From Candidatus Iainarchaeum sp. (GTDB taxonomy: Archaea; Iainarchaeota; Iainarchaeia; Iainarchaeales; GCA-2688035), in assembly GCA_017610175.1 (NCBI GenBank), contig JAFCCO010000005.1, positions 1-64,000 of the forward strand: a stretch of DNA of 64,000 nt, given 5' to 3'. Made by a program: the position numbers and the translations under genes. The notes beneath the pieces are model-generated. The model was not told where the DNA came from. It saw only the letters and a list, made by a program, of their open reading frames with translations, and made no database searches. Of the stretch, positions 3,777 to 55,003 are shown piece by piece. The first letter of the stretch is position 1, and each line of letters opens with the position of its first letter.

Positions 3777-3815
3777 CCCTTAAGCACTATAGATAATAGC
3801 AATACAGTGGTATTT

Positions 3816-3902
3816 ATGAAAACAGCAGGTAGTTTTGGAACAAAGTCTACGAATTACTTACTTAGCCTGCTCGTTTTGCTTCTGGTTTTGCTGTTAGGAT
3901 AA
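3816..3902 (+). CDS. Putative leucine/valine-rich leader peptide (28 aa): MKTAGSFGTKSTNYLLSLLVLLLVLLLG
   Basis: Read directly; 10 Leu + 2 Val among the last 14 residues; sits between a TATA-like box and leuA, followed by overlapping hairpins. Confidence 0.75.
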   Translation: MKTAGSFGTKSTNYLLSLLVLLLVLLLG

Positions 3903-3935
3903 GCACTTCCTAGCTAAAGCAAATTTTGGAAGTGC
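3887..3935 (+). promoter_or_regulatory. Putative attenuator: two mutually exclusive hairpins downstream of the Leu leader
   Basis: Hairpin 1: 3887-3892+3893-3899 pairs with 3918-3923+3908-3914 (13 bp, 3-nt bulge, one G-U). Hairpin 2: GCACTTCC 3903-3910 with GGAAGTGC 3928-3935 (8 bp perfect), followed by GGTTTT. They share 3908-3910. Confidence 0.65.
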
Positions 3936-3979
3936 GGTTTTAAAACTGGAGAAGTCATTAGATTCGAGGTGTTTTGGAA

Positions 3980-5497
3980 ATGAGAAAAATAAGAGTTTTT
4001 GATACAACGCTCAGAGATGGGGAGCAGAGCCCTGGTGCGACTCTTACGCATCGCGAGAAAATAATGATTGCAAGGCAGCTTGAAAAGCTTGGTGTTGATG
4101 TAATCGAGGCGGGTTTTCCTATCGCGAGCGATGACGATTTCAAGGCGGTTAAGGAGATTGCGGAAACCGTTAAGGGGCTGAGCGTGTGCGGTCTTGCCCG
4201 CGCAATGCCAAAGGACATTGACAGGGCCTGGGAGGCCATTCAGAACGCCAAAAAACCAAGGATACACACTTTTATGTCGACAAGCGACGTGCATTTAAAG
4301 CACCAATTCAAAAAAACCAGGGATGAGGCCCTTGAAATGAGTGTTGAGGCTGTAAAACTTGCCTGTTCCTACTGTAAGGATGTGGAGTTTTCGCCAATGG
4401 ATGCCACGCGCACCGACCCCAAATTCCTTTTCCAGGTGCTTGAAAAAGTGATTGAAGCCGGTGCGGGGACGGTTAACATTCCTGACACTGTTGGGTATGC
4501 CCAGCCAGTGGAATTCGGCAAGCTCATTAAGAACATTTGCGATAACGTTCCGGGCATTGAGAATGCGGTAGTTAGCGTGCACTGCCACAACGATTTGGGG
4601 CTTGCGGTCGCAAACAGCCTTGAGGCGGTGCGCAACGGCGCCGGCCAGGTTGAGTGCACTGTAAATGGCATTGGCGAGCGTGCAGGAAATGCGTCCCTTG
4701 AAGAAATCGCGATGAACCTGCATACCCGCAGTGAATTTTTTGGGGTCTGCACAAGCATTAACCTTAAGGAAATTTATCCTTCATCGCTGATGGTCAGCAA
4801 CCTTACAGGGATGGCGGTTCAGCGCAACAAGGCAATTGTTGGCAAAAACGCATTTGCGCACGAGGCCGGAATTCACCAGCACGGTGTTCTTGCAAACTCA
4901 CAAACTTATGAGATAATGGACCCTGAGATGATTGGCAATAAAAGCCAGTTTGTGCTCGGCAAGCATTCCGGCAAGCACGCAACAAAGAAGGTTCTCAAGG
5001 ACATGGGTTTTGATCTCTCAGACGACGAGCTCAAACAGGTAACCAACAGGATAAAACAGCTTGCAGACAAGCAGAAAACCGTGCTCGATGAAGACATTGT
5101 TGCAATTGCAGGAGATGTCACACAGCAGCTTAAGAAAGAGGAAAAGCGAATTGTTCTTGAGGAATTTCGCATTGAAACAGGCAACAAGGTAAAGCCCACT
5201 GCAATCCTCAAGCTTATAATCGACGGAAAGAAAGTTGAGGCAAAGGGAACAGGGGTTGGGCCTGTTGACGCAATAACCAACGCACTGCAATCAGTTTCAC
5301 CCACAAAGGTTTCGCTCCACGAATACCACCTCAACGCAATAACAGGCGGAACAGACGCACTTGCGGACGTTGAGGTAAAAATAGTCAACGGGTCGGGAAA
5401 GGTCCACAATGCAGAGGCAATCAATGAGGATGTACTAACGGCAAGCACGAACGCCATCATAAAGGGCATAAACAAGGCGCTTGCCAACAAAAAGTAG
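3980..5497 (+). CDS. leuA: 2-isopropylmalate synthase
   Basis: RVFDTTLRDGEQSPGATL; HCHNDLGLAVANSL; regulatory LeuA dimer domain at C-terminus; GAGGTG upstream of ATG 3980. Confidence 0.93.
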   Translation: MRKIRVFDTTLRDGEQSPGATLTHREKIMIARQLEKLGVDVIEAGFPIASDDDFKAVKEIAETVKGLSVCGLARAMPKDIDRAWEAIQNAKKPRIHTFMSTSDVHLKHQFKKTRDEALEMSVEAVKLACSYCKDVEFSPMDATRTDPKFLFQVLEKVIEAGAGTVNIPDTVGYAQPVEFGKLIKNICDNVPGIENAVVSVHCHNDLGLAVANSLEAVRNGAGQVECTVNGIGERAGNASLEEIAMNLHTRSEFFGVCTSINLKEIYPSSLMVSNLTGMAVQRNKAIVGKNAFAHEAGIHQHGVLANSQTYEIMDPEMIGNKSQFVLGKHSGKHATKKVLKDMGFDLSDDELKQVTNRIKQLADKQKTVLDEDIVAIAGDVTQQLKKEEKRIVLEEFRIETGNKVKPTAILKLIIDGKKVEAKGTGVGPVDAITNALQSVSPTKVSLHEYHLNAITGGTDALADVEVKIVNGSGKVHNAEAINEDVLTASTNAIIKGINKALANKK

Positions 5498-15889: not shown

Positions 15890-15924
15890 ACCGCTTTTTA
15901 AAGCCCCGAACTCTGCGAAAAGTA

Positions 15925-15930
15925 TTTAAA
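15925..15930 (+). promoter_or_regulatory. Putative TATA box of the aromatic leader-operon
   Basis: AAAAGTATTTAAAGAAC; about 25 nt downstream would start transcription close to ATG 15955 (near-leaderless). Confidence 0.55.
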
Positions 15931-15954
15931 GAACCTTGCCCTATAATTCACTAT

Positions 15955-16059
15955 ATGGAATGTGCAAACGCATTTATTGGTGCTGAAACTTTTCTTTTCA
16001 AAGTTTGCGCAGCCGTGGGCAAGTACTTTGCTTATTGGTATTTTTATTTTTTTGAGTAG
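15955..16059 (+). CDS. Putative aromatic-residue-rich leader peptide (34 aa): MECANAFIGAETFLFKVCAAVGKYFAYWYFYFFE
   Basis: Read directly; 9 of 10 residues 24-33 are Phe/Tyr/Trp; immediately precedes the aromatic biosynthesis operon and overlapping hairpins. Confidence 0.8.
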   Translation: MECANAFIGAETFLFKVCAAVGKYFAYWYFYFFE

Positions 16060-16114
16060 GCACCAGGCTACTCTCTGTTTTTAGCTTGGTTGCCAGGACT
16101 AACAAACGGAGAGT
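16060..16114 (+). promoter_or_regulatory. Putative attenuator: two mutually exclusive hairpins after the aromatic leader
   Basis: Hairpin A: GCACCAGGCTA 16060-16070 with TAGCTTGGTTGC 16082-16093 (11 bp, one bulge, one G-U). Hairpin B: 16070-16084 with 16099-16114 (ACTCTCTGTTT/AAACGGAGAGT plus TTAG/CTAA; one bulge, one G-U), with further pairing inside the loop. They share 16070 and 16082-16093. Confidence 0.7.
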
Positions 16115-16163
16115 TCACACTATAAAAATTTGATAGGGAAAAAAAGTTGGAGCGTGAAAAAAA

Positions 16164-16820
16164 ATGGAAATTTGGGTTGACAGTGCGGATATTGGTGAAG
16201 TAAAAAGAGTTCATGAACTTGGAATAGTTGACGGGGCAACAACAAACCCTTCCCTTTTTGCAAAGCAGAAAAGCAAGGATTTCAAGGGGGTTGTGAAGCA
16301 GATTGCTGACATAGTTAACGGGCCGGTTTCGGCAGAGGTTGTCGCAACAGATTTTGAGGGAATGGTGAGGCAGGCTGAAATTGTCTCAAAAATCCACAAA
16401 AACGTTGTAGTGAAAATTCCATGCATTCCTGACGGGCTCAAAGCCGTAAAGTACTGCAGTGACAACGGAATCAAGACAAATTATACCCTGACCTTTTCCG
16501 CAAACCAAATTCTTCTTGCTGCAAAAGCGGGAGCAACCTACACAAATGTATTCATTGGCAGGTTGGATGACGCAGGGCACAGCGGAATGGAGGTTGTAAG
16601 GGAAGCAATGCAGATTCTGAACAACTACAAGTTTGAAACAAAACTAATTGCGGCCTCAACAAGGCACCCTTTGCACATTAAGGAAGCGGCTTTGCTTGGA
16701 TGCCATGTGGCAACAGTTCCGCCCGCATTAATTGAAAAGCTAATAAAGCACCCGCTAACCGACGCAGGGCTCAAGCAGTTCCTTGCAGACTGGGAGAAAT
16801 GCGGCTGCAAAATTGAGTGA
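16164..16820 (+). CDS. tal: Transaldolase / fructose-6-phosphate aldolase (TalC/FSA-like)
   Basis: MEIWVDSADIGEVKR; DGATTNPSLFAKQ; VVKIPCIPDGLKAVK; TNYTLTFSANQ; FIGRLDDAG. Confidence 0.9.
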   Translation: MEIWVDSADIGEVKRVHELGIVDGATTNPSLFAKQKSKDFKGVVKQIADIVNGPVSAEVVATDFEGMVRQAEIVSKIHKNVVVKIPCIPDGLKAVKYCSDNGIKTNYTLTFSANQILLAAKAGATYTNVFIGRLDDAGHSGMEVVREAMQILNNYKFETKLIAASTRHPLHIKEAALLGCHVATVPPALIEKLIKHPLTDAGLKQFLADWEKCGCKIE

Positions 16821-16830
16821 GTGATTTAAA

Positions 16831-17904
16831 ATGGGGCTTGCTGAGAAAAGAAAAAAGATAGATTCAATTGACGAGAAGGTTCTTAACCTGCTTAGCCAGC
16901 GGGCTAAAGTTGCACAGGAAGTTGCAAAGGAAAAGGGCAAGAGCGGGACACAAATTTATGTGCCCGAGCGGGAAAGGTCGCTTCTCGAAAACCTTGTGAA
17001 GAAAAACAAGGGTCCGTTCAGCGGCAAGGCAATTGATTCAATTTACCGCGCAATAATTTCCGAGTGCCGTGCACTGGAAAGTTCAATGAAGGTTTGTTAT
17101 CTTGGCCCTGCAACAACATTCACGCACATGGCTGCGATAAAGAACTTTGGAAACTCAACCGAATTCATTCCAAAGGACAGCATCTCAGACGTATTTCACA
17201 ATGTGGAAAAAGGGGTTGCAGATTACGGTGTTGTCCCGGTTGAAAACAGCACAGAGGGCACAATTAACCACACGCTCGATATGTTCATTGATTCGGAGCT
17301 AAACATTGTGGCAGAAATCGTTCTTGACATAAAGCACTGCCTGCTTTCAAACCACAAGCTTAAGGAGATTAAGAAGGTGTACTCAAGGCCCACGGCCCTT
17401 GCGCAGTGCCGAAACTGGCTTGCGCAGAACCTGCCAAAGGCGGAACTTCTTGAGTCAAGCAGCACCGCAAAGGCAGCGGAATCAGTTACCCTGTACCACA
17501 GCAGTGCGGCAATTTCCTCAGAGCTTGCGGCAAAGGAATTCGGGCTTGACATTCTTGCAAGAAACATTCAGGACAACCCATACAATGCCACAAGGTTCTT
17601 TGTGGTTGGAAAAACCAAGCCAAAGAAGGCAAACAAGAACAAGACAAGCATAATGTTCTCAGTAAAGCACGAGCCCGGCTCACTTTTCAGGGCGCTAAAG
17701 TCTTTTTCGGACGGGAAAGTAAACATGACCAAAATTGAGTCAAGGCCAACCCGCAGGAAAGGCTGGGAAGTCGTGTTCTTCATAGATTTTGAGGGGCACT
17801 TAGAGGATGACACAGCCAAAAAAGTGCTCGCAGACATGCAGAAGAACTGCTTATTTGTAAAAATACTTGGCTCATACCCTATGGAGGTAAGTGTCAGTGA
17901 GTAA
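16831..17904 (+). CDS. pheA: Bifunctional chorismate mutase / prephenate dehydratase (P-protein)
   Basis: N-terminal AroQ-like CM helix; [35 protein letters not shown]-terminal ACT with [19 protein letters not shown]. Confidence 0.93.
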
Positions 17905-18712
17905 AAGCATTGCCGAGCTTGGAGAAATTTCCAAAACGGTTCGCCGTGAAATCCTTAAAATGATTACAAAGGCGGGAAGCGGCCATCCGGGCGGCAGCCT
18001 AAGCTCAACCGATTTGGTTGTAGCGCTTTACTTCTCCAAGATGAAGCACGATTCAGGCAATCCAACAGACCCTGAGAGGGACAAGTTTGTTCTAAGCAAG
18101 GGGCATGCGTGCCCGCTTTTGTACGCGGTGCTTGCGGAGGCGGGATACTTTCCCAAAGAAGAGCTTTCATCGCTTAGAAAACTCGGTTCAATTCTGCAGG
18201 GGCACCCCGACAGGAACAAGGTTCCGGGAATTGAGGCTTCAACAGGAAGCCTTGGCCAGGGGCTAAGCATTGCAAATGGAATAGCGCTTGCCGACAGGCT
18301 TGATAAAAGAAACTCAAGAACCTACTGCCTTCTTGGCTGCGGTGAATCGCAGGAAGGGCAGGTTTGGGAGGCCGCAATGGCTGCGGCACACTACAAGCTT
18401 GATAACCTTTGCGCAATAATTGACAAAAACAACCTGCAAATAGACGGCAAAACATGCGAGGTAATGAACATCGAGCCTGTTGCTGAGAAATGGATGGCCT
18501 TTGGCTGGAATGTTATTGAAATTGACGGCCACAACTTTGGCGAAATACTCAAGGCATTTGATGAGTCCAAAAAAGTCAAGGGAAAGCCCACGATGATTGT
18601 CGCAAAAACCGTTAAGGGAAAGGGCGTTTCGTTCATGGAAAACGTCTGCGGTTTCCACGGGAAGGCATTAACCGAGGAAGAGCTTGCAAAGGCAGTGGAG
18701 GAACTCAAATGA
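17891..18712 (+). CDS. Transketolase, N-terminal subunit
   Basis: ThDP half: [40 protein letters not shown]-like [14 protein letters not shown]. Confidence 0.93.
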
Positions 18713-19653
18713 CCGACGCGATTGCAACAAGGGAAGCCTACGGAAACACTCTTGCGGAACTTGGCGAAAAAAACAGGGCCATTGTTGTGCTCGACGCCGA
18801 CTTGAGCAAGAGCACAAAGTCCGCAACGTTTGCGGCAAAATTCCCCGAACGATTCTTTGATGTGGGGGTGGCCGAGGCGAACATGGTTGGAATTGCGGCA
18901 GGTTTTGCCATTGCGGGAAAAATTCCTTTCGCAAGCAGTTTTGCGGTTTTCGCAACCGGTCGCGTATTTGACCAGATTAGGGTAAGCGTTGCATACAGCA
19001 ACCTAAACGTGAAAATTGTGGGTTCCCACGCCGGCCTTGCGACAGGGGAAGACGGAGCAACACACCAGGCAACAGAGGACATTGCATTAATGCGCTCTCT
19101 TCCAAACATGTCCGTGATTTCACCGGCTGACGGGGTTGAAACAAGGCTTGCGGTTGAATCAATGGCTGCAAACCCAGGTCCTGTTTACCTGCGCACCTCC
19201 CGTTTGAAAACTCCCGCAATATTTGATGAAAGTTACAATTTTAAGATTGGAAAAGGGACAATAATAGGGGACGGTTCGGATGTTTCAATTATTGCAACAG
19301 GAATAATGGTTTCAAAGGCAGTTGAGGCCGCTGAATTGTTAAAGAAAAACGGCATAAGTGCACGCCTGATTAATATGGCAAGCATTAAGCCGCTTGATGA
19401 ACAGCTTGTTCTCAAAGCCGCAAAGGAAACTGCAGGGATTGTTTCCTGCGAAGACCACAGCGTGATTGGGGGGCTTGGCTCTGCAATAGCAGAAACCATT
19501 TCCGAAAAGCATCCTGCAAAACTTCATCGCATAGGCCTTAATGATAAATTCGGTGAGTCGGGAAAACCTGACGAACTTTACAAAAAATTTTCAATGGATG
19601 CGGCTGCAATAGCCGCATCTGCAAAAAATTTGCTGAACAAAACCGGGGAGTGA
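18709..19653 (+). CDS. Transketolase, C-terminal subunit
   Basis: [58 protein letters not shown]. Confidence 0.93.
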
Positions 19654-20672
19654 TGACAATGATTATAGTTCTAGGCAAAAAAGCAGACGACAAAGCAATA
19701 GAGGAACTAACAGAGGAAATTGAAAACAAGGGACTCAAGGTTTTTATCTCAAGGGGGGAGCAGAAGATAATTGTTGGCGCAATGGGTGACGAAAGGCTTC
19801 TCAATATTGATCACCTGAAAGCGCTTCCATTTGTTGAAAAGGTAATGCCGATTACAGCACTCTACAAGCTGGCAAGCCGTGAATTCCACCCAGAGGACAC
19901 AATCATTAAGGTAAACGGCTGTGAAATTGGCGGGGACAACCTCACAATTATTGCAGGGCCCTGTGCAATCGAGAGCGAAAAGCAAATGCTTGAAACAGCG
20001 CACGCAGTAAAAGATGCCGGAGCATCAATTCTTCGCGGTTCGGCATTCAAGCCAAGAACCTCTCCCTACGATTTCCAGGGGCTTGCGGAAGAGGGGCTGA
20101 AAATTCTGAAAAAGGCAAAGGAAGAAACCGGTCTCCCCATTGAAACAGAGGTTATGGACACAAGGCATGTTGAGCTTGTTGCAAAATACGTTGACATTCT
20201 TCGCGTTGGCGCAAGGAACATGCAGAACTTTGACCTTCTTAAGGAAGTTGGGCGAACGAACAAGCCTGTAATTCTCAAAAACGGTGTTGCATCCACCATG
20301 AAGGAATTCCTCATGGCTGCAGAATACATTATGAGCGAGGGAAACGAGAACGTTATTCTCTGCAACAGGGGAATCAGGTGCTATGAACCAGAGCTTCGCT
20401 TTCCGATTCTCAGCGGGCTAACCAACCTAATCAAGCAAAAGACCCACCTCCCGGTAATTGTTGACCCAAGCCACAGCACAGGCAACAAAAGCCTTGTTGT
20501 TCCGGTTTCAAAGGCGGCAATTGCAGAGGGAGCCGACGGAATAATTGTCGAGGTCCACAACTGCCCGGAGGAAGCAAAGTGCGATGCCGCACAGCAGCTT
20601 ACCCCTCCCGAATTCAGGGAAATGATGGTGGAACTGAGAAAAATCGGCGAAGCGGTTGGAAAAAAGCTGTGA
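19650..20672 (+). CDS. aroF: 3-deoxy-7-phosphoheptulonate (DAHP) synthase, type I-beta with N-terminal regulatory domain
   Basis: [40 protein letters not shown]. Confidence 0.93.
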
Positions 20673-20676
20673 TTGC

Positions 20677-21291
20677 ATGAAAGTATATGTTTGCAGGCAC
20701 GGAGAAACAGTGCTTAACAAGAAGAGGTTGAGGCAGGGGATCCTTGATTCGCCCCTGACTGTCCTGGGTGTTAAGCAGGTTGAGGAAATGGCCAGTGCAC
20801 TTTCGGGCATTTCTCCTGCTGCAATTTATTCTTCAGATCTTGGGCGGGCGGTTGCAACCGCCGAGATAATTGCAAAGCCGCACAATCTTAATCCAATTCT
20901 CTTCGACAAAATACGCGAAATAAGCGGAGGTGCTTTGGAGGGACTCAGCTTTGAGCAGTCAAACAGCAAATACTTCAAGGATGTTGAGGCGCGAAACAGG
21001 GACAAGTTCAATGTGCCGTTTCCGGGCGGGGAAAGTTACGCTGATGTGGAAGTTCGTGTAAAGTCTTTTATTGAAATGCTGTATGAAAAGCATTCTGATG
21101 AAGAGGTCATTATTGTTTGCCATCAGGCTGTCGGGCGAATGCTTGCTGTACTGCTTGCAGACTTCCCTGCAGAAACAGTGCTTAAGACGCAGTTTTTGCA
21201 CAATATGGTTTATGAAATAGATTCAACCAAAGAGAATAAGGTAAGTTACTTGCTTGATGGCAAGAAACATGAGGGCTTGCTTTACAGATAG
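20677..21291 (+). CDS. Histidine phosphatase / phosphoglycerate mutase-like protein
   Basis: [42 protein letters not shown]. Confidence 0.85.
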
Positions 21292-21300
21292 GAGATTTGA

Positions 21301-22572
21301 ATGGAGTTGTTGGTAAAAAAATCGGTATTGAACGGCAACATAAGGATTCCCGCCTCAAAGTCACACACCATCCGTGCTGTCATGATTGCATCGCTTGCGA
21401 GCGGAAAGTCAACCCTCCTGAACCCACTTGATTCAATGGATTCAACCGCAAGCGTTAATGCCTGCAGGGCAATGGGTGCAAAAATCGAGCTGGGAAAAAA
21501 CTGGGCTATTGAAGGGTTTGCCGGAAAGCCTAAAACCCCAAAGTCCGACATAGACCTTATGAACTCGGGCACCAGCACAAACATGGTTGCAGGGATCGCC
21601 GCCCACACAACAGGTCCAACCGTTCTCACAGGGGACGAAAGCCTTAGAAGCAGGCCGTTTGCCCCAATTGTTAACGCATTAAATGCATTGGGTGCAAGGG
21701 TTGAAAGTGTTCCGGGGAACGGAAAGCTTCCGCTTAATGTAAGCGGCTTTCTAGAGGGTGGTTTTGTTGAAATTGACGGCCTTAATTCACAGCCGGTTTC
21801 CAGCATTTTAATTAACTCTGCACTTGCCAAAAATGATATGGAGATGCGCGTAACAAATTTCCACGAGCAGTCCTATGTAAGGATGACAATGCAGTGGCTT
21901 GACTGGATGGGCATAAAGTACTGTGAAAAGAAAATGGAAACATTCAATGTAGAGGGCGAACAGCAATTCAATTCCTTTGAACGAAGCATTCCCGCGGACT
22001 TTTCATCGGCAACATTCCCGCTTTGTGCGGCCTCAATAATTTCCGGAAGCGACGTTTTGCTTCAGGGTCTTGATATGGATGACTCGCAGGGGGACAAGGA
22101 CGTTGTTGCAATGCTCCAAAAAATGGGTGCGGAAATTGATGTGAATGAAGATGGAATTAGGGTGCGCGGCTCTGAATTGCATGGAACAGAGCTTGACTTA
22201 GACAACACTCCTGATGCATTGCCGGCTCTTGCGGTAGTTGGCTGCTTTGCAGATGGGGAAACCCGCCTTGTAAATGTTGCACAGGCAAGAATTAAGGAAA
22301 CAGACCGCATTGCTGCTATGGCTACCGAGCTTAAGAAGATGGGTGCGGATGTGGAGGAGCTTGAAGACGGATTGGTTATTAGAAAAAGCAATTTGAAGGG
22401 TGCGGAAGTTGACGGAAAACACGACCATCGTCTGGTAATGGCCCTTTCCATTGCAGGAATGCTTGCGGAGGGCTCAACAACCGTAAAAACAGCCGAATCG
22501 GTTGACGTGACTTTTCCAACCTATCCGAAATTAATGTCTTCTTTGGGTGCAAAGATGGAGCTGGTGAAATGA
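21301..22572 (+). CDS. aroA: 3-phosphoshikimate 1-carboxyvinyltransferase (EPSP synthase)
   Basis: IPASKSHTIRAVMIASLASGKS; NSGTSTNMVAGI; RIKETDRIAAMATEL; DHRLVMALSIAG. Confidence 0.95.
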   Translation: MELLVKKSVLNGNIRIPASKSHTIRAVMIASLASGKSTLLNPLDSMDSTASVNACRAMGAKIELGKNWAIEGFAGKPKTPKSDIDLMNSGTSTNMVAGIAAHTTGPTVLTGDESLRSRPFAPIVNALNALGARVESVPGNGKLPLNVSGFLEGGFVEIDGLNSQPVSSILINSALAKNDMEMRVTNFHEQSYVRMTMQWLDWMGIKYCEKKMETFNVEGEQQFNSFERSIPADFSSATFPLCAASIISGSDVLLQGLDMDDSQGDKDVVAMLQKMGAEIDVNEDGIRVRGSELHGTELDLDNTPDALPALAVVGCFADGETRLVNVAQARIKETDRIAAMATELKKMGADVEELEDGLVIRKSNLKGAEVDGKHDHRLVMALSIAGMLAEGSTTVKTAESVDVTFPTYPKLMSSLGAKMELVK

Positions 22573-23090
22573 AAAACATTGTGATAATGGGTTTTAAGGC
22601 ATGCGGAAAGAGCTGGGTTGGAAGGGACCTTGCCAAAAAGCTTGAAAGGGAATTTATTGACCTGGATGATGTGATTAGGGACCTTTATAAACAGGAATTC
22701 GGGGAACAGCTTTCATGCAGGGAAATTCACCAAAAGCACGGTGCCGAAAAATTCCGTTCCCTTGAAGCAAAAGCGGTTGAGCAGGTTTCCCAAAAAAGCG
22801 ATTGCGTTATTGCTTTGGGGGGCGGAACAATTGCATACTCTGCAAACGTTGACCTGCTTAAGGGTTCGGGAATAATTGTTTACCTTAAGGATAGTGCTGA
22901 GAATTTGCTTGAGCGAATTAAGAAAAGGGGAATTCCCACCTTTCTTGACCCCACTGATTTGGAGGGCTCAATGAAGCGCGAGCTTGCAAGGCGCGAACCG
23001 CTTTACGAAAAATATGCGGACATTATTGTATCCTCCGCTGGGCTAAGTATTGACGGCATTGTTGAAAAAATTATTGGGGCATTGAAATGA
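22569..23090 (+). CDS. aroK: Shikimate kinase, bacterial (P-loop) type
   Basis: IVIMGFKACGKSWVGRDLA; EFIDLDDVI; ALGGGTIA. Confidence 0.88.
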   Translation: MKNIVIMGFKACGKSWVGRDLAKKLEREFIDLDDVIRDLYKQEFGEQLSCREIHQKHGAEKFRSLEAKAVEQVSQKSDCVIALGGGTIAYSANVDLLKGSGIIVYLKDSAENLLERIKKRGIPTFLDPTDLEGSMKRELARREPLYEKYADIIVSSAGLSIDGIVEKIIGALK

Positions 23091-23752
23091 TCGCCGTTCC
23101 AATCACCGCCGAATCCATTGATTCTGCGCTCTCAGACATTGGGCTTGCAAACGAAAAGGCCGACATTATTGAGCTTCGCCTGGATTTTCTTGAGGACGTA
23201 AGTGAATCTGGCCTCAAAGAGCTGTTGGATGCGTGTGAAAAGCCGGCAATAGTCACTTTCAGGGACAAGAATTTTGGGGCGTCAGTTGAGCAGACTGAGC
23301 GGGTTTTCATGCTTAAGAAGGCAATTGATTTTGGGGCGCACTTTGTTGACATTGACTTTGATTCCGAAAAGGATTTTGTTGAGGATGTTGTGGAGCACAA
23401 GCAGGGTGCAAACATTATTTTGTCCCACCACAATTTTGAGGAAACGCCTTCATTGCCTGAGCTTATGAAAGTGCTTAATTCACTGCTTGAAGTGCCAGGA
23501 ATTGATGTTGTGAAGATTGTTACTTTTGCGCAGGACGAGTCCGACAATGACACAGTTCTTGCGCTCATTAAGGTTGTACAAGATGCCGAAAGGCACATTA
23601 TTGCCTTTTGCATGGGCTCAAAAGGTCGAAAAAGCCGCATTGCTTGCGTAAAACTTGGCTCACTGCTTACATTTGCGTCCCTTGGATTGGGCAAGGAAAG
23701 CGCTTCAGGGCAGTTGGCTGTTAATGAAATGAGAAAGGAGCTGGCAAAATGA
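23087..23752 (+). CDS. aroD: 3-dehydroquinate dehydratase, type I
   Basis: IIELRLDFLED; ILSHHNFEETP; overlaps aroK stop. Confidence 0.92.
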   Translation: MIAVPITAESIDSALSDIGLANEKADIIELRLDFLEDVSESGLKELLDACEKPAIVTFRDKNFGASVEQTERVFMLKKAIDFGAHFVDIDFDSEKDFVEDVVEHKQGANIILSHHNFEETPSLPELMKVLNSLLEVPGIDVVKIVTFAQDESDNDTVLALIKVVQDAERHIIAFCMGSKGRKSRIACVKLGSLLTFASLGLGKESASGQLAVNEMRKELAK

Positions 23753-24561
23753 TTACCGCAAAAACAAGGGTTTGCGCCGTTCTTGGGCATCCTGTTGCGC
23801 ACAGCATGAGCCCCGCAATTCACAATGCTGCATTTAATGAGCTTGGGTTGGATTTTGTTTACGTTGCATTCGACGTTGAGGATGTCAGGCCCGCAATTGA
23901 TGCAATGCGTGAAATGGGCATTAAAGGGTATAGTGTGACAATTCCCCACAAGCAGGCGGTTCTCCCATTAATGGACAAAGTGGATTCTCTTGCGGAAAAG
24001 ATTGGTGCGGTTAACACAGTAGTGAATTCGGGTGGCAAGCTTGAAGGATTCAACACGGATGCATTTGCCGCAGCCAGCGCATTGGAAGCAAAAACAAGTT
24101 TGGGTGGTAAGAAAGTTGCCTTGCTTGGTGCAGGCGGTGCGGCGCGCGCAATAGCCTTTGCTCTTTTTGAAAAGGGCTCTCTTGTGACAATTTTGAACCG
24201 CACTGCTTTAAAGGCCGAAGCTCTTTCAAAAGAGGTTGGTTGCGCACACGCTTTTCTGAATGAGATGGCTTCTTTGGATTTTGACATTTTAATCAACGCA
24301 ACCTCGATTGGAATGCATCCAAAAGTTGACGCTTCCCCTGTTGACAAAAGTATTTTAAAGAAGGGAATGCTTGTTTTTGATGTGGTTTACAATCCTGTTG
24401 AAACCCTGCTGTTGAAGCAGGCAAAGCAAGCGGGTTGTGGCACAGTAAGCGGGGTTGAAATGTTTGTTGGGCAGGGCGCCGAGCAATTCAGGCTCTGGAC
24501 CGGCAAAAATGCCCCTGTTGAATTGATGCGCAAAGTTGTGTTAGGGAAGTTGGGCAAATGA
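23749..24561 (+). CDS. aroE: Shikimate dehydrogenase
   Basis: [46 protein letters not shown]. Confidence 0.94.
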
Positions 24562-25625
24562 CCGGAAACGTTTTTGGAGAATCGTTCAAAATAGTGACTT
24601 TTGGCGAGTCCCACGGCACAGCAGTCGGTGTAGTGATTGACGGCGTAAAACCGGGTATTAAAATCAGTGAAAAGGACATTCAAAAGGAACTTGACAGGCG
24701 AAGGCCTGGGCAGAGCAAAGTAAGCACTGCCCGCGAGGAAGAGGACAAGGTTGAGATTCTTAGCGGTGTGTTTGAGGGAAAGACGCTTGGGACACCAATT
24801 TGCCTGCTTGTTTGGAACAAGGGGATGAAATCAAAGGATTATTCTGCGATAAAGGACTTGTTCAGGCCTGGTCAGGCGGACTACACTTATCTGAAAAAGT
24901 TTGGATTTCGCGATTACAGGGGCGGAGGCCGTGCTTCCGGAAGGGAAACTATTGGAAGGGTTGCTGCCGGAGCCGTTGCAAAAAAGCTTCTTGCAAAGAA
25001 CGGCATAAAGGTTATTGCTTACACCCGCGAGATAGCAGGCATTTCTGCGAAACACTTTGTTGAGGCTGAGATTGAGAAGAATCCTGTTAGATGCCCTGAC
25101 AGGGCTGCCGCAAAGAAGATGGCCAGGGCGATTCTTGAGGCAAAATCGGTTGGAAACAGCGTTGGCGGGGTTGTGGAAATTGTTGTAAAGAACGTTCCTG
25201 CCGGTTTGGGCGAGCCTGTTTTTGGAAAGCTTGATGCAGAGCTTGCAAAGGCCTTGATGGGCATTGGCTCAATTAAGGGTGTTGAGATTGGGGTCGGTTT
25301 TGAGGCCGCAAAAATGAAGGGAAGCGAGTGCAATGATGAGATGTATTCAAGGGGCGGGCAGGTTAAGTTCAAGAGCAATAATGCGGGCGGAATCCTGGGG
25401 GGAATCTCCAGTGGCCAGGACATTGTTGCACGCATTGCAGTAAAGCCCACTCCCTCAATTTCACTGCTTCAAAAAACGGTTGACGTGAAAGGGAAGAATA
25501 AAAGCATCCAAACCTTTGGAAGGCACGACCCCTGCATTTGCCCGCGCGTTGTCCCCGTTGCGGAGGCAATGGTTGCGCTTGTTCTGGCTGACGCAATTAT
25601 GGCTCAGGACGCCAAAAAGAACTGA
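24558..25625 (+). CDS. aroC: Chorismate synthase
   Basis: [65 protein letters not shown]. Confidence 0.96.
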
Positions 25626-52446: not shown

Positions 52447-52821
52447 ATGGCTGTGCCTAAGGGAAAATATGTTCCGGTTGGAAGACGCGGGCGCGGAAAG
52501 AAGCCAATTTCGGTTGGTTCCCGCAAAAAAGCAATCTCTAGACGGAGGGCCACTCCTAAACAGAAGGCAACCTCTTTGCTTCGCTCTTTTTCCAAATCCA
52601 AGGCATCAACTGAACTTAGGGGCCTGATAAAGACTTATAAGATGGAAATTGGGGGCAGCAGGAAGGGTTCTGCAAAATACAAGTGGATTCGCAAAAGGCT
52701 GATTACTGCCAAGGCAACTTTTTGGGACGGCCTTATTGCTTTTGCAAAAATTAAGGATGCTTCAAAGGTGGTTATTGCAGAACTTGAGGCAAGGAAAAAA
52801 GTTGATATTAGAAAACTCTAA
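52447..52821 (+). CDS. Small basic protein of unknown function
   Basis: MAVPKGKYVPVGRRGRGKKPISVGSRKK...; ATG after TATA-like box. Confidence 0.6.
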   Translation: MAVPKGKYVPVGRRGRGKKPISVGSRKKAISRRRATPKQKATSLLRSFSKSKASTELRGLIKTYKMEIGGSRKGSAKYKWIRKRLITAKATFWDGLIAFAKIKDASKVVIAELEARKKVDIRKL

Positions 52822-52870
52822 TCCCCTAATCCGCGCGCTTTTTATTGTTTTTCAGCCTTTTATTTGCTTT

Positions 52871-55003
52871 ATGTGCGGAATAGCCGGATTCTTTAACTGC
52901 AAAGATGCTCCTGTAAAAGCAGTGGATGCACTTTCTGAAATGCGCAACCGTGGAATTGACGGTGCAGGCATAGCCTTTGGTAAGCAAGCGCGCTTTGCTT
53001 CGTTCCCCAAACTTCTGAAGCAGGAAAAAGATTCAACCGCTGTTTTGGGGCACGTTCTGCACAGCGTTGTTGGAAGCGTTGCCCAGCCGCTGAAGGGAAA
53101 GGGTTTTCTTGCGGCAAACTGTGAAATTTACAACTGGAAAGAGCTTGCTGCAAAGCACAGAATTAAGGCAAGAAACGATGCCGGGCTTGTGCTAAAGCTT
53201 ATTGAGAAAAGCAAGGGCGTTGAATCTGTTCTAAAAGAGCTTGACGGGGTTTGGGCATTTGCTTACTGGAACGGAAACAGGGTTGTGCTCAGTCGGGACA
53301 TTCTTGGAGTAAAGCCGCTTTGGTATTCGCTTAGCAATGGTTTCTGCTTTGCCTCCGAAAAAAAGGCCTTGGAGAAGGCGGGCTGTTTGGGGATTGAGGA
53401 GCTTGACCCAAGGCATGTGCTTGAATTTGATTTAAAGAACGGAAAGGCAAAATTTGTAAAGAGAAAATTCTTTTCGGCTAAAAAGAGCGCTGTGAATTTT
53501 GAGCGAAGCGTTGAATCGCTTAAGCGGCTTTTGCAGGACGCGGTTGCAAAGCGCGTTCCCGAAAAGAAATTCGGTCTGCTGTTTAGTGGGGGAATAGATT
53601 CTGTTCTGCTTGCAACAGTTTTCAAGGAGATGGGTTATTCTTTCACCTGCTTCTTTGCATATGTTAAAGGTTTTGGGGAGCCGGCAGACCTAAAGTTTGC
53701 GCGCCGTGCCGCAAAAACCCTTGGGCTCGAGCTTGAGGAAATTGCCGTAAAGAAAAGCGACCTGCCCAAATTGATTTCAGAGGTTGTTTTGCTTATTGAA
53801 TCAAGCAATCCTGTAAAGGTTGGAGTTGCTCTTCCCCTGTATGCCGCGTGCAGGAAGGCAAAGCGCCGCGGCATTAAGGTAATTTTTTCAGGCCTTGGTG
53901 CGGACGAACTGTTCTGCGGCTACGCCCGCTTTAGGGAATCGAACAATGTGCAGCTTGATTCAATCAATTTGCTGATGCAAATGCACGAAAACGACCTTTA
54001 CCGCGATGACGTTCTCTCAATGAACAACAGCCTTGAGTTAAGGCTTGCGTTTCTCGATCTTAATGTAATAAAGTTTGCCCTTCCGCTTGCAAAGAAATTT
54101 AAGCTATCCTCCAAGCAGAATAAAATAATTCTTCGCGAGGCCGCGCGTTCGCTTGGAGTCCCCAACGAATTTGCTTCGCGAAAGAAGAAGGCCGCCCAGT
54201 ACGGGAGCAATTTTGACAAGGGAATCGGAAAGCTTGCAAAGAAATCCGGTATGAGAAAGGCTGAGTTTCTTGCCGGCTTTGCGCCAAAGAAGAACCTTAA
54301 GCTTGCCGCGCTTTTTTCGGGCGGGAAGGATTCCTGCCTTGCACTCTGGATAATGCAGAGGCAGAACTATGATGTAAGCTGCCTTGTTTCGGTTTTTCCA
54401 AAGAATCCCGACTCTTACATGTACCACCAGCCCAATGCGCGGGTTGTTGCCCTGCAGTCAAAGGCCCTTGGGATTCCATTGCTTAAGAAAACGACAAAGG
54501 GTGTTAAGGAAAAGGAATTGTCTGCACTCAAGTCTGTGTTACTGGATGCAAAAAAGAAGTTTGGAATTCAGGGTGTTGTTTCAGGGGCGCTTTTCAGCAA
54601 TTACCAGCGCGAGCGAATCCAAAAAATATGCCTTGCACTCGGATTAAAGCTTTTCTCCCCCCTGTGGCATAAAAAGCAGGGGCAGGAAGTGCGCGAGCTT
54701 GTCAACAACGGTTTTGTTTTTGTGATGTCAAAGATTGCGGGCTATGGCCTCAGCAAAGAATGGCTTGGAAAGCCGATTGGGGCAAAGGAAATTGTGGAGC
54801 TTGACAGGCTGAACCAAAGAATTGGGTTTAATGTTGCGGGCGAGGGCGGAGAGTACGAATCCCTTGTTCTTGATGCCCCGAATTTTTCAAAGCGAATAGT
54901 TCTTGGTAAGTTGGCAACTAAAATGGGGAATGAGTTTACCGGTTCCCTTGTGATAAAAAAGGTTTCACTCAAGGGCAAACGCTTTAATAGTGGGAAGGAC
55001 TAA
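52871..55003 (+). CDS. Asparagine synthetase (glutamine-hydrolysing)-like protein fused to Dph6/diphthine-ammonia ligase-like ATP pyrophosphatase
   Basis: MCGIAGFFN (GATase II Cys2), LLFSGGIDSVLLATVF and GLGADELFCGY (AsnB), then ALFSGGKDSCLALWIMQRQ, VSGALFSNYQRERIQKIC, NVAGEGGEYESLVLDAPNF (Dph6/DUF71). Confidence 0.85.
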   Translation: MCGIAGFFNCKDAPVKAVDALSEMRNRGIDGAGIAFGKQARFASFPKLLKQEKDSTAVLGHVLHSVVGSVAQPLKGKGFLAANCEIYNWKELAAKHRIKARNDAGLVLKLIEKSKGVESVLKELDGVWAFAYWNGNRVVLSRDILGVKPLWYSLSNGFCFASEKKALEKAGCLGIEELDPRHVLEFDLKNGKAKFVKRKFFSAKKSAVNFERSVESLKRLLQDAVAKRVPEKKFGLLFSGGIDSVLLATVFKEMGYSFTCFFAYVKGFGEPADLKFARRAAKTLGLELEEIAVKKSDLPKLISEVVLLIESSNPVKVGVALPLYAACRKAKRRGIKVIFSGLGADELFCGYARFRESNNVQLDSINLLMQMHENDLYRDDVLSMNNSLELRLAFLDLNVIKFALPLAKKFKLSSKQNKIILREAARSLGVPNEFASRKKKAAQYGSNFDKGIGKLAKKSGMRKAEFLAGFAPKKNLKLAALFSGGKDSCLALWIMQRQNYDVSCLVSVFPKNPDSYMYHQPNARVVALQSKALGIPLLKKTTKGVKEKELSALKSVLLDAKKKFGIQGVVSGALFSNYQRERIQKICLALGLKLFSPLWHKKQGQEVRELVNNGFVFVMSKIAGYGLSKEWLGKPIGAKEIVELDRLNQRIGFNVAGEGGEYESLVLDAPNFSKRIVLGKLATKMGNEFTGSLVIKKVSLKGKRFNSGKD

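Follow-up and report, generated by a model that had tools for sequence, protein, structure and literature searches.

A putative ribosome-mediated attenuator at an aromatic amino acid operon of an archaeon

The region upstream of an archaeal operon for aromatic amino acid biosynthesis encodes a short peptide rich in Phe, Tyr and Trp, and its stop codon is followed by overlapping hairpins. Leader-peptide attenuation is a textbook mechanism in bacteria. Two features of attenuators are present here, a pathway-matched short open reading frame and mutually exclusive helices, and from its sequence the leader is judged to be one that operates like an attenuator. Pathway-matched leader peptides with switchable hairpins recur across many families of one archaeal phylum. 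These findings suggest that archaea may possess an attenuation switch that senses the ribosome, a type hitherto known from bacteria alone. It is quite probable that the operon is subject to leader-peptide attenuation. The complete account is proposed with moderate confidence, on evidence that is comparative throughout. It has a ribosome-mediated attenuator sensing the charging of Phe, Tyr and Trp tRNAs, a hairpin (A) that is the ON conformer, and termination by way of a U-tract and/or FttA.

The DNA analyzed, termed the window, is a 64-kb stretch of a 1.24-Mb genome. The features discussed are listed below.

15922–15931, + strand: archaeal TATA box GTATTTAAAG, from sequence, with a BRE-like CGAAAA just before it
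15955–16059, + strand: leader open reading frame MECANAFIGAETFLFKVCAAVGKYFAYWYFYFFE with its stop codon; homologues are found in the equivalent position
16054–16073, + strand: helix 0 (strands 1:2), GAGTAG at 16054–16059 (last codon and stop) with CTACTC at 16068–16073
16060–16093, + strand: hairpin A (strands 2:3), arms 16060–16070 and 16082–16093, from RNAfold and pairing in four genomes
16070–16114, + strand: hairpin B (strands 3:4), arms 16070–16084 and 16099–16114 plus inner pairs, from RNAfold and covariation
16078–16082, + strand: U-tract UUUUU in the loop of A, a candidate archaeal termination signal
16112–16128, + strand: conserved block AGT-N4-ACTA-N2-AAA, from alignment, possibly a small AGU/ACU tetraloop hairpin
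16149–16157, + strand: Shine-Dalgarno sequence of tal, GGAGCGTGA, from sequence, outside A and B
16164–25625, + strand: the putatively controlled operon, with a tal-type aldolase first, for the shikimate pathway and erythrose-4-phosphate supply

Two of its genes, for aCPSF1/FttA and an archaeal Dph6, mark the host as an archaeon. In the genome, aCPSF1/FttA scores 832 bits, above the family cut-off, and Dph6 is encoded within the window. The latter locus (52736–55003) is an asparagine synthase fused to the archaeal diphthine-ammonia ligase (Dph6). Bacterial contamination as the source of the leaders was considered and ruled out, since leaders share contigs with FttA and the window carries the archaeal Dph6. 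On one contig (G057:C2), FttA is accompanied by both a leu and an aro leader, and on another (G070:C3) by an aro leader.

The order of genes in the operon is tal, chorismate mutase/prephenate dehydratase (pheA), transketolase N and transketolase C (tkt, split into two genes), DAHP synthase (aroF), a phosphatase-like gene, aroA, aroK, aroD, aroE and aroC. The genes overlap or almost abut; aroD and aroE were identified by position and sequence. The shikimate kinase matches the NCBIfam AroK/AroL models with scores under their cut-offs, and because of this match the operon or its regulation might be of bacterial origin.

The TATA box places the predicted transcript start a few bases before the leader ATG. 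The sequence CGAAARGTATTTAAA is kept at the equivalent place in three other genomes, L003, L004 and L080. The leader open reading frame ends with a TAG codon (16057–16059), and nine of its last 11 codons are aromatic. The leader homologues (MQCAGVLREETVFDTISAAVGSYFAYWYFV, MQCASVFREEGFFGKISAAVGSYFAYWYFA and MSCANVFLSEEKDIFSRICTAIADYSAFWYFYFFE) are found in the equivalent position with synonymous codon changes, and the codons of the YFAYWYF segment vary synonymously across genera. L003 and L004 are two genomes of a second genus, with tal 69%–72% identical and a leader core of SAAVGSYFAYWYF; L080 is a genome of a third genus, where the leader (core ADYSAFWYFYFFE) is situated before pheA. Both of these genera belong to the same family as the host. 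On this comparison of sequences, the leader open reading frame is selected as a peptide. A YFAYWYF pattern search over the order gave these three as the only exact homologues, and matches with mismatches were mostly open reading frames out of context. Within the leader, a further ATG in a different frame opens an eight-residue open reading frame (15960–15986), MCKRIYWC, with Tyr and Trp close to its end.

Folding of the post-stop RNA with RNAfold returned both hairpins described in the initial annotation of this DNA, A right after the leader stop codon and B with inner pairing. The 5′ arm of A opens at the first base past the stop. As had been noted, the two hairpins overlap: bases 16070 and 16082–16084 are common to both, and A and B therefore cannot coexist. 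When the first 12 post-stop bases are masked, which mimics a ribosome at the stop, B has a free energy of −18.4 kcal/mol (z = −3.8 vs. dinucleotide shuffles). The 75 nt past the stop give −22.8 kcal/mol (z = −3.8). Hairpin A alone is energetically unexceptional in the window sequence (z = −1.5), and support for A therefore comes from conservation. The initial annotation found no U-run past B, and inspection of the sequence and a terminator scan of the leader region agree with this. As B is without a U-run behind it and pairs the U-tract itself, it is no ordinary terminator. An intrinsic terminator of the bacterial kind, i.e. a 3:4 hairpin with a U-run, is thus absent from the window leader. 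Rfam covariance models gave no match in the window at gathering score.

Helix 0 and the U-tract at 16078–16082 were both absent from the initial annotation. The terminator scan shows helix 0 as GAGTAG-GCACCAGG-CTACTC, followed by TCTGTTTTTA; its p value against shuffled post-stop sequence is 8/300. Helix 0 with the U-tract is the sole terminator-like match in the region. Helix 0 competes with A, and helix 0, A and B together give the strand order 1:2, 2:3, 3:4 of classical attenuators. The U-tract sits between strands 2 and 3 rather than past 3:4.

Pairing was assessed with an alignment of four post-stop regions (the window, L003, L004 and L080) from three genera. In A, 92.9% of cells are paired and changes are one-sided only. 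In B, 93.9% of cells are paired and three pairs have both sides changed, i.e. are doubly compensated; the covariation score of B was attained in 5 of 500 shuffles. The covariation that the initial annotation had proposed to look for in homologous leaders is thus found in B. Shifting A or B by 1–3 columns abolishes pairing. With n = 4 sequences, the support for A and B is to be regarded as good but not final. A choice between A and B by ribosome position, as first put forward in the annotation, gains support in these four genomes from the conserved leader peptide, the position-conserved A and the compensatory changes in B. The leu hairpins were left out of the pair counts because MAFFT misaligned their arms.

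The relatives sampled cover the phylum, with one class and 87 species. Scans across the order, covering the regions before leuA, tal and the DAHP synthase gene, show aromatic leaders before aro operons in 12 genomes from eight families (e.g. MKTNSLPKTELFNSFFSEAAAWFFNFFFFY and MDSAEIQAIHSVNAFWPAGATIFFSYYFYG). A close leuA is present in 18 genomes, and it has a Leu/Val leader before it in essentially all of them. Open reading frames whose last 12 residues include at least six F, Y or W lie before only 11 of 519 open reading frames, and 10 of these 11 are aro-pathway genes. Those whose last 12 residues include at least eight L, V or I precede 13 of 21 leuA-type open reading frames, compared with 1 of 498 others. 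Two independent operons of the window have a leader whose amino acid fits their pathway.

The post-stop hairpin begins 0–3 nt past the stop in most leaders; over 30 leaders its mean z is −1.56, and the combined p value for its position is 5.6e-6. The U-tracts in the loop of A exceed those of shuffles in length (p = 2.6e-8, 30 leaders) and end mostly 17–30 nt past the stop; most leaders have tracts of 3–7 U. The likeness to the topology of the leuA leader, drawn in the initial annotation, extends to A and often to a stop-spanning 1:2 helix. It does not extend to B. No conserved B is found in leu leaders (mean z = +0.27 with the first 12 nt masked), and on this value B was rejected as a feature that leu leaders generally share. 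Among the relatives as a whole, B is not general either.

The leuA operon leader of the window (3800–3980, L054) is MKTAGSFGTKSTNYLLSLLVLLLVLLLG, followed by its stop codon. A helix, GTTAGG/CCTAGC, spans that stop codon, and the post-stop hairpin is GCACTTCC/GGAAGTGC. This layout is widespread in the order. A short conserved block, possibly a small hairpin, follows the hairpins and precedes the first gene. It reads AGT-N4-ACTA in aro leaders, as opposed to AGTCNTTAG in leu leaders, where it is found ~18 nt past hairpin A.

In the proposed mechanism, scarce aromatic tRNAs would cause the ribosome to stall early in YFAYWYF(YFF), and the post-stop bases would be free. Hairpin A would fold once its 3′ arm emerges and would block helix 0 and B. 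The U-tract would be closed in the loop of A, and transcription would run on into tal-pheA-tkt-aro. With plentiful aromatics, the ribosome at the stop would cover ~12 nt past the stop, including the 5′ arm of A. Without A, the U-rich stretch would stay open and B would later lock A out. Transcription would then end within the leader, via U-tract intrinsic termination or FttA/aCPSF1. A stalled ribosome would leave A free and a ribosome at the stop would block it; A is therefore, by physiological logic, taken as the ON form. The geometry of the leader suggests that ribosome position sets the choice of helix. Premature transcription termination at the U-tracts is considered the somewhat more probable readout.

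About 64% of the hungry codons in the 30 leaders are far enough upstream to leave A wholly free, if the leading edge of the ribosome is taken to lie 17 nt from the first A-site base. In two leaders (L009 and L084) most aromatic codons are near the stop, and A would be partly covered by a ribosome stalled there.

U4-tracts are a binding and termination signal for aCPSF1; for both aCPSF1 and archaeal polymerase, U-tracts serve without a hairpin (PMC8716108). FttA requires single-stranded U-rich RNA ~30–36 nt behind the 3′ end at the polymerase (PMC11616081). A U-tract near +20 would put the polymerase near +55, a stage at which A but not B has its 3′ arm exposed; thus a contest between A and FttA would be possible. 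If B merely locks A out, its strong conservation in the family is partly unexplained. Both a U-tract and an FttA gene are present here, and L003 and L004 have a loop U-tract of just 3 nt (U3).

A different reading is that helix 0 and the U-tract form a single terminator. A ribosome stalled at the last hungry codons would cover strand 1 and prevent termination, and A would be a follow-up structure only. The position of helix 0 as the sole terminator-like match in the leader favors this, as does the extension of hungry codons right to the stop; a like design, with hungry codons overlapping the terminator, is predicted for Actinobacteria ilvB (PMC1262725). In addition, stop-spanning helices over all leaders exceed shuffles (p = 7e-5), and they are perfect or near perfect in L066, L067, L097, L101 and most leu leaders of the family. 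However, helix 0 is weak or missing in seven leaders (L003, L004, L008, L058, L061, L065 and L084), whereas A is nearly universal, and under strong starvation ribosomes would already halt at the earliest hungry codons, which would keep strand 1 uncovered. A single terminator appears unlikely. The absence of a U-run behind B is also compatible with translational control, in which A or B would alter ribosome access to the tal start, by occlusion or by blocking re-initiation from the leader stop. The start of tal is 104 nt past the leader stop, and this alternative is known for Actinobacteria leuA elements (PMC1262725). The initial annotation had likewise allowed for an effect on tal translation, but the accessibility predicted for the Shine-Dalgarno sequence does not depend systematically on which of the two positions the ribosome occupies (means 0.56 and 0.53, p = 0.17). 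Occlusion of the Shine-Dalgarno sequence was dropped as a general mechanism, as one conformer hiding the first-gene start was not borne out by these values. Moreover, A and B finish 35–56 nt short of the Shine-Dalgarno sequence, and the distance from leader to first gene varies from ~77 to 190 nt. Control of translation is rather doubtful.

That A and B act on RNA stability or bind a regulatory protein, with the leader peptide a by-product, is improbable. It could give a role to the conserved block past B (16112–16128), which is otherwise unexplained, but would leave unaccounted for the pathway-matched codons in two operons and many families. Chance, i.e. AT-rich aromatic codons with a fortuitous hairpin, is scarcely credible: the modest z-score of A alone in the window sequence would fit, but conservation in other genera, covariation and the leader controls contradict it.

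Ribosome-mediated attenuation, the preferred reading, has parallels in known systems. Enterobacterial trpL, pheL and leuL (four-strand model) display pathway-matched hungry codons, then 1:2, 2:3 and 3:4 helices, with a biosynthetic operon downstream. The present leader differs in its archaeal host and promoter and in being near-leaderless; further, 3:4 is without a U-run, the U-tract is between strands 2 and 3, and A is placed exactly past the stop. Actinobacteria ilvB leaders and leuA LEU elements share hungry codons up to the stop and a stop-spanning helix, and each of these variants, as well as the present leader, is without some classical attenuator parts (PMC1262725). Unlike the Actinobacteria elements, which belong to another domain of life, no pseudoknot or pairing between codon run and Shine-Dalgarno sequence was found here. 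The likeness to archaeal U-tract/FttA (aCPSF1) termination consists of the U-tracts in most leaders and the FttA encoded in the genome. FttA termination is known at gene ends, and a regulated, ribosome-controlled use is not described in PMC8716108 or PMC11616081.

According to a 2021 study, no archaeal transcription attenuation or antitermination was known (PMC8448881). Full-text literature searches, with subscription journals mostly outside their coverage, gave no report of either in archaea since then. If the proposal is true, archaea couple leader translation to operon transcription, and the leader would represent the first archaeal case of attenuation or antitermination. The regulatory role of transcription-translation coupling and of FttA, long open, would become directly testable. 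A broader proposal can be put forward tentatively, at a little under an even chance. It states that the phylum runs its amino acid operons (aromatic, branched-chain, perhaps tryptophan) by ribosome-dependent attenuation, a first in Archaea, with the post-stop hairpin as an antiterminator that would hide the U-tract from polymerase release or FttA/aCPSF1.

No His-rich leader was found at hisG loci. In one genome (G072), an aromatic-rich short open reading frame, MTIFTPPTLYYSLFYFFWFTFHLC, is present upstream of an Lrp/AsnC-like regulator gene (L045); this may be due to chance. Upstream of trpE, a short open reading frame that ends in GDSLWLQ before its stop codon is found in the host's own genome (L121, 1110–1410, on contig C33) and at L116, L122, L115, L125 and L128. 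Its variants are MTSKGDSLWLQ, MQGDSLWLQ, MQGDSLWLR and MPSDSLWVRE. It is possibly a Trp-sensing leader of a different design. A tRNA-Trp gene is also present upstream of trpE at L115, L116, L121, L122 and L124, and at the first four of these it follows the GDSLWLQ open reading frame.
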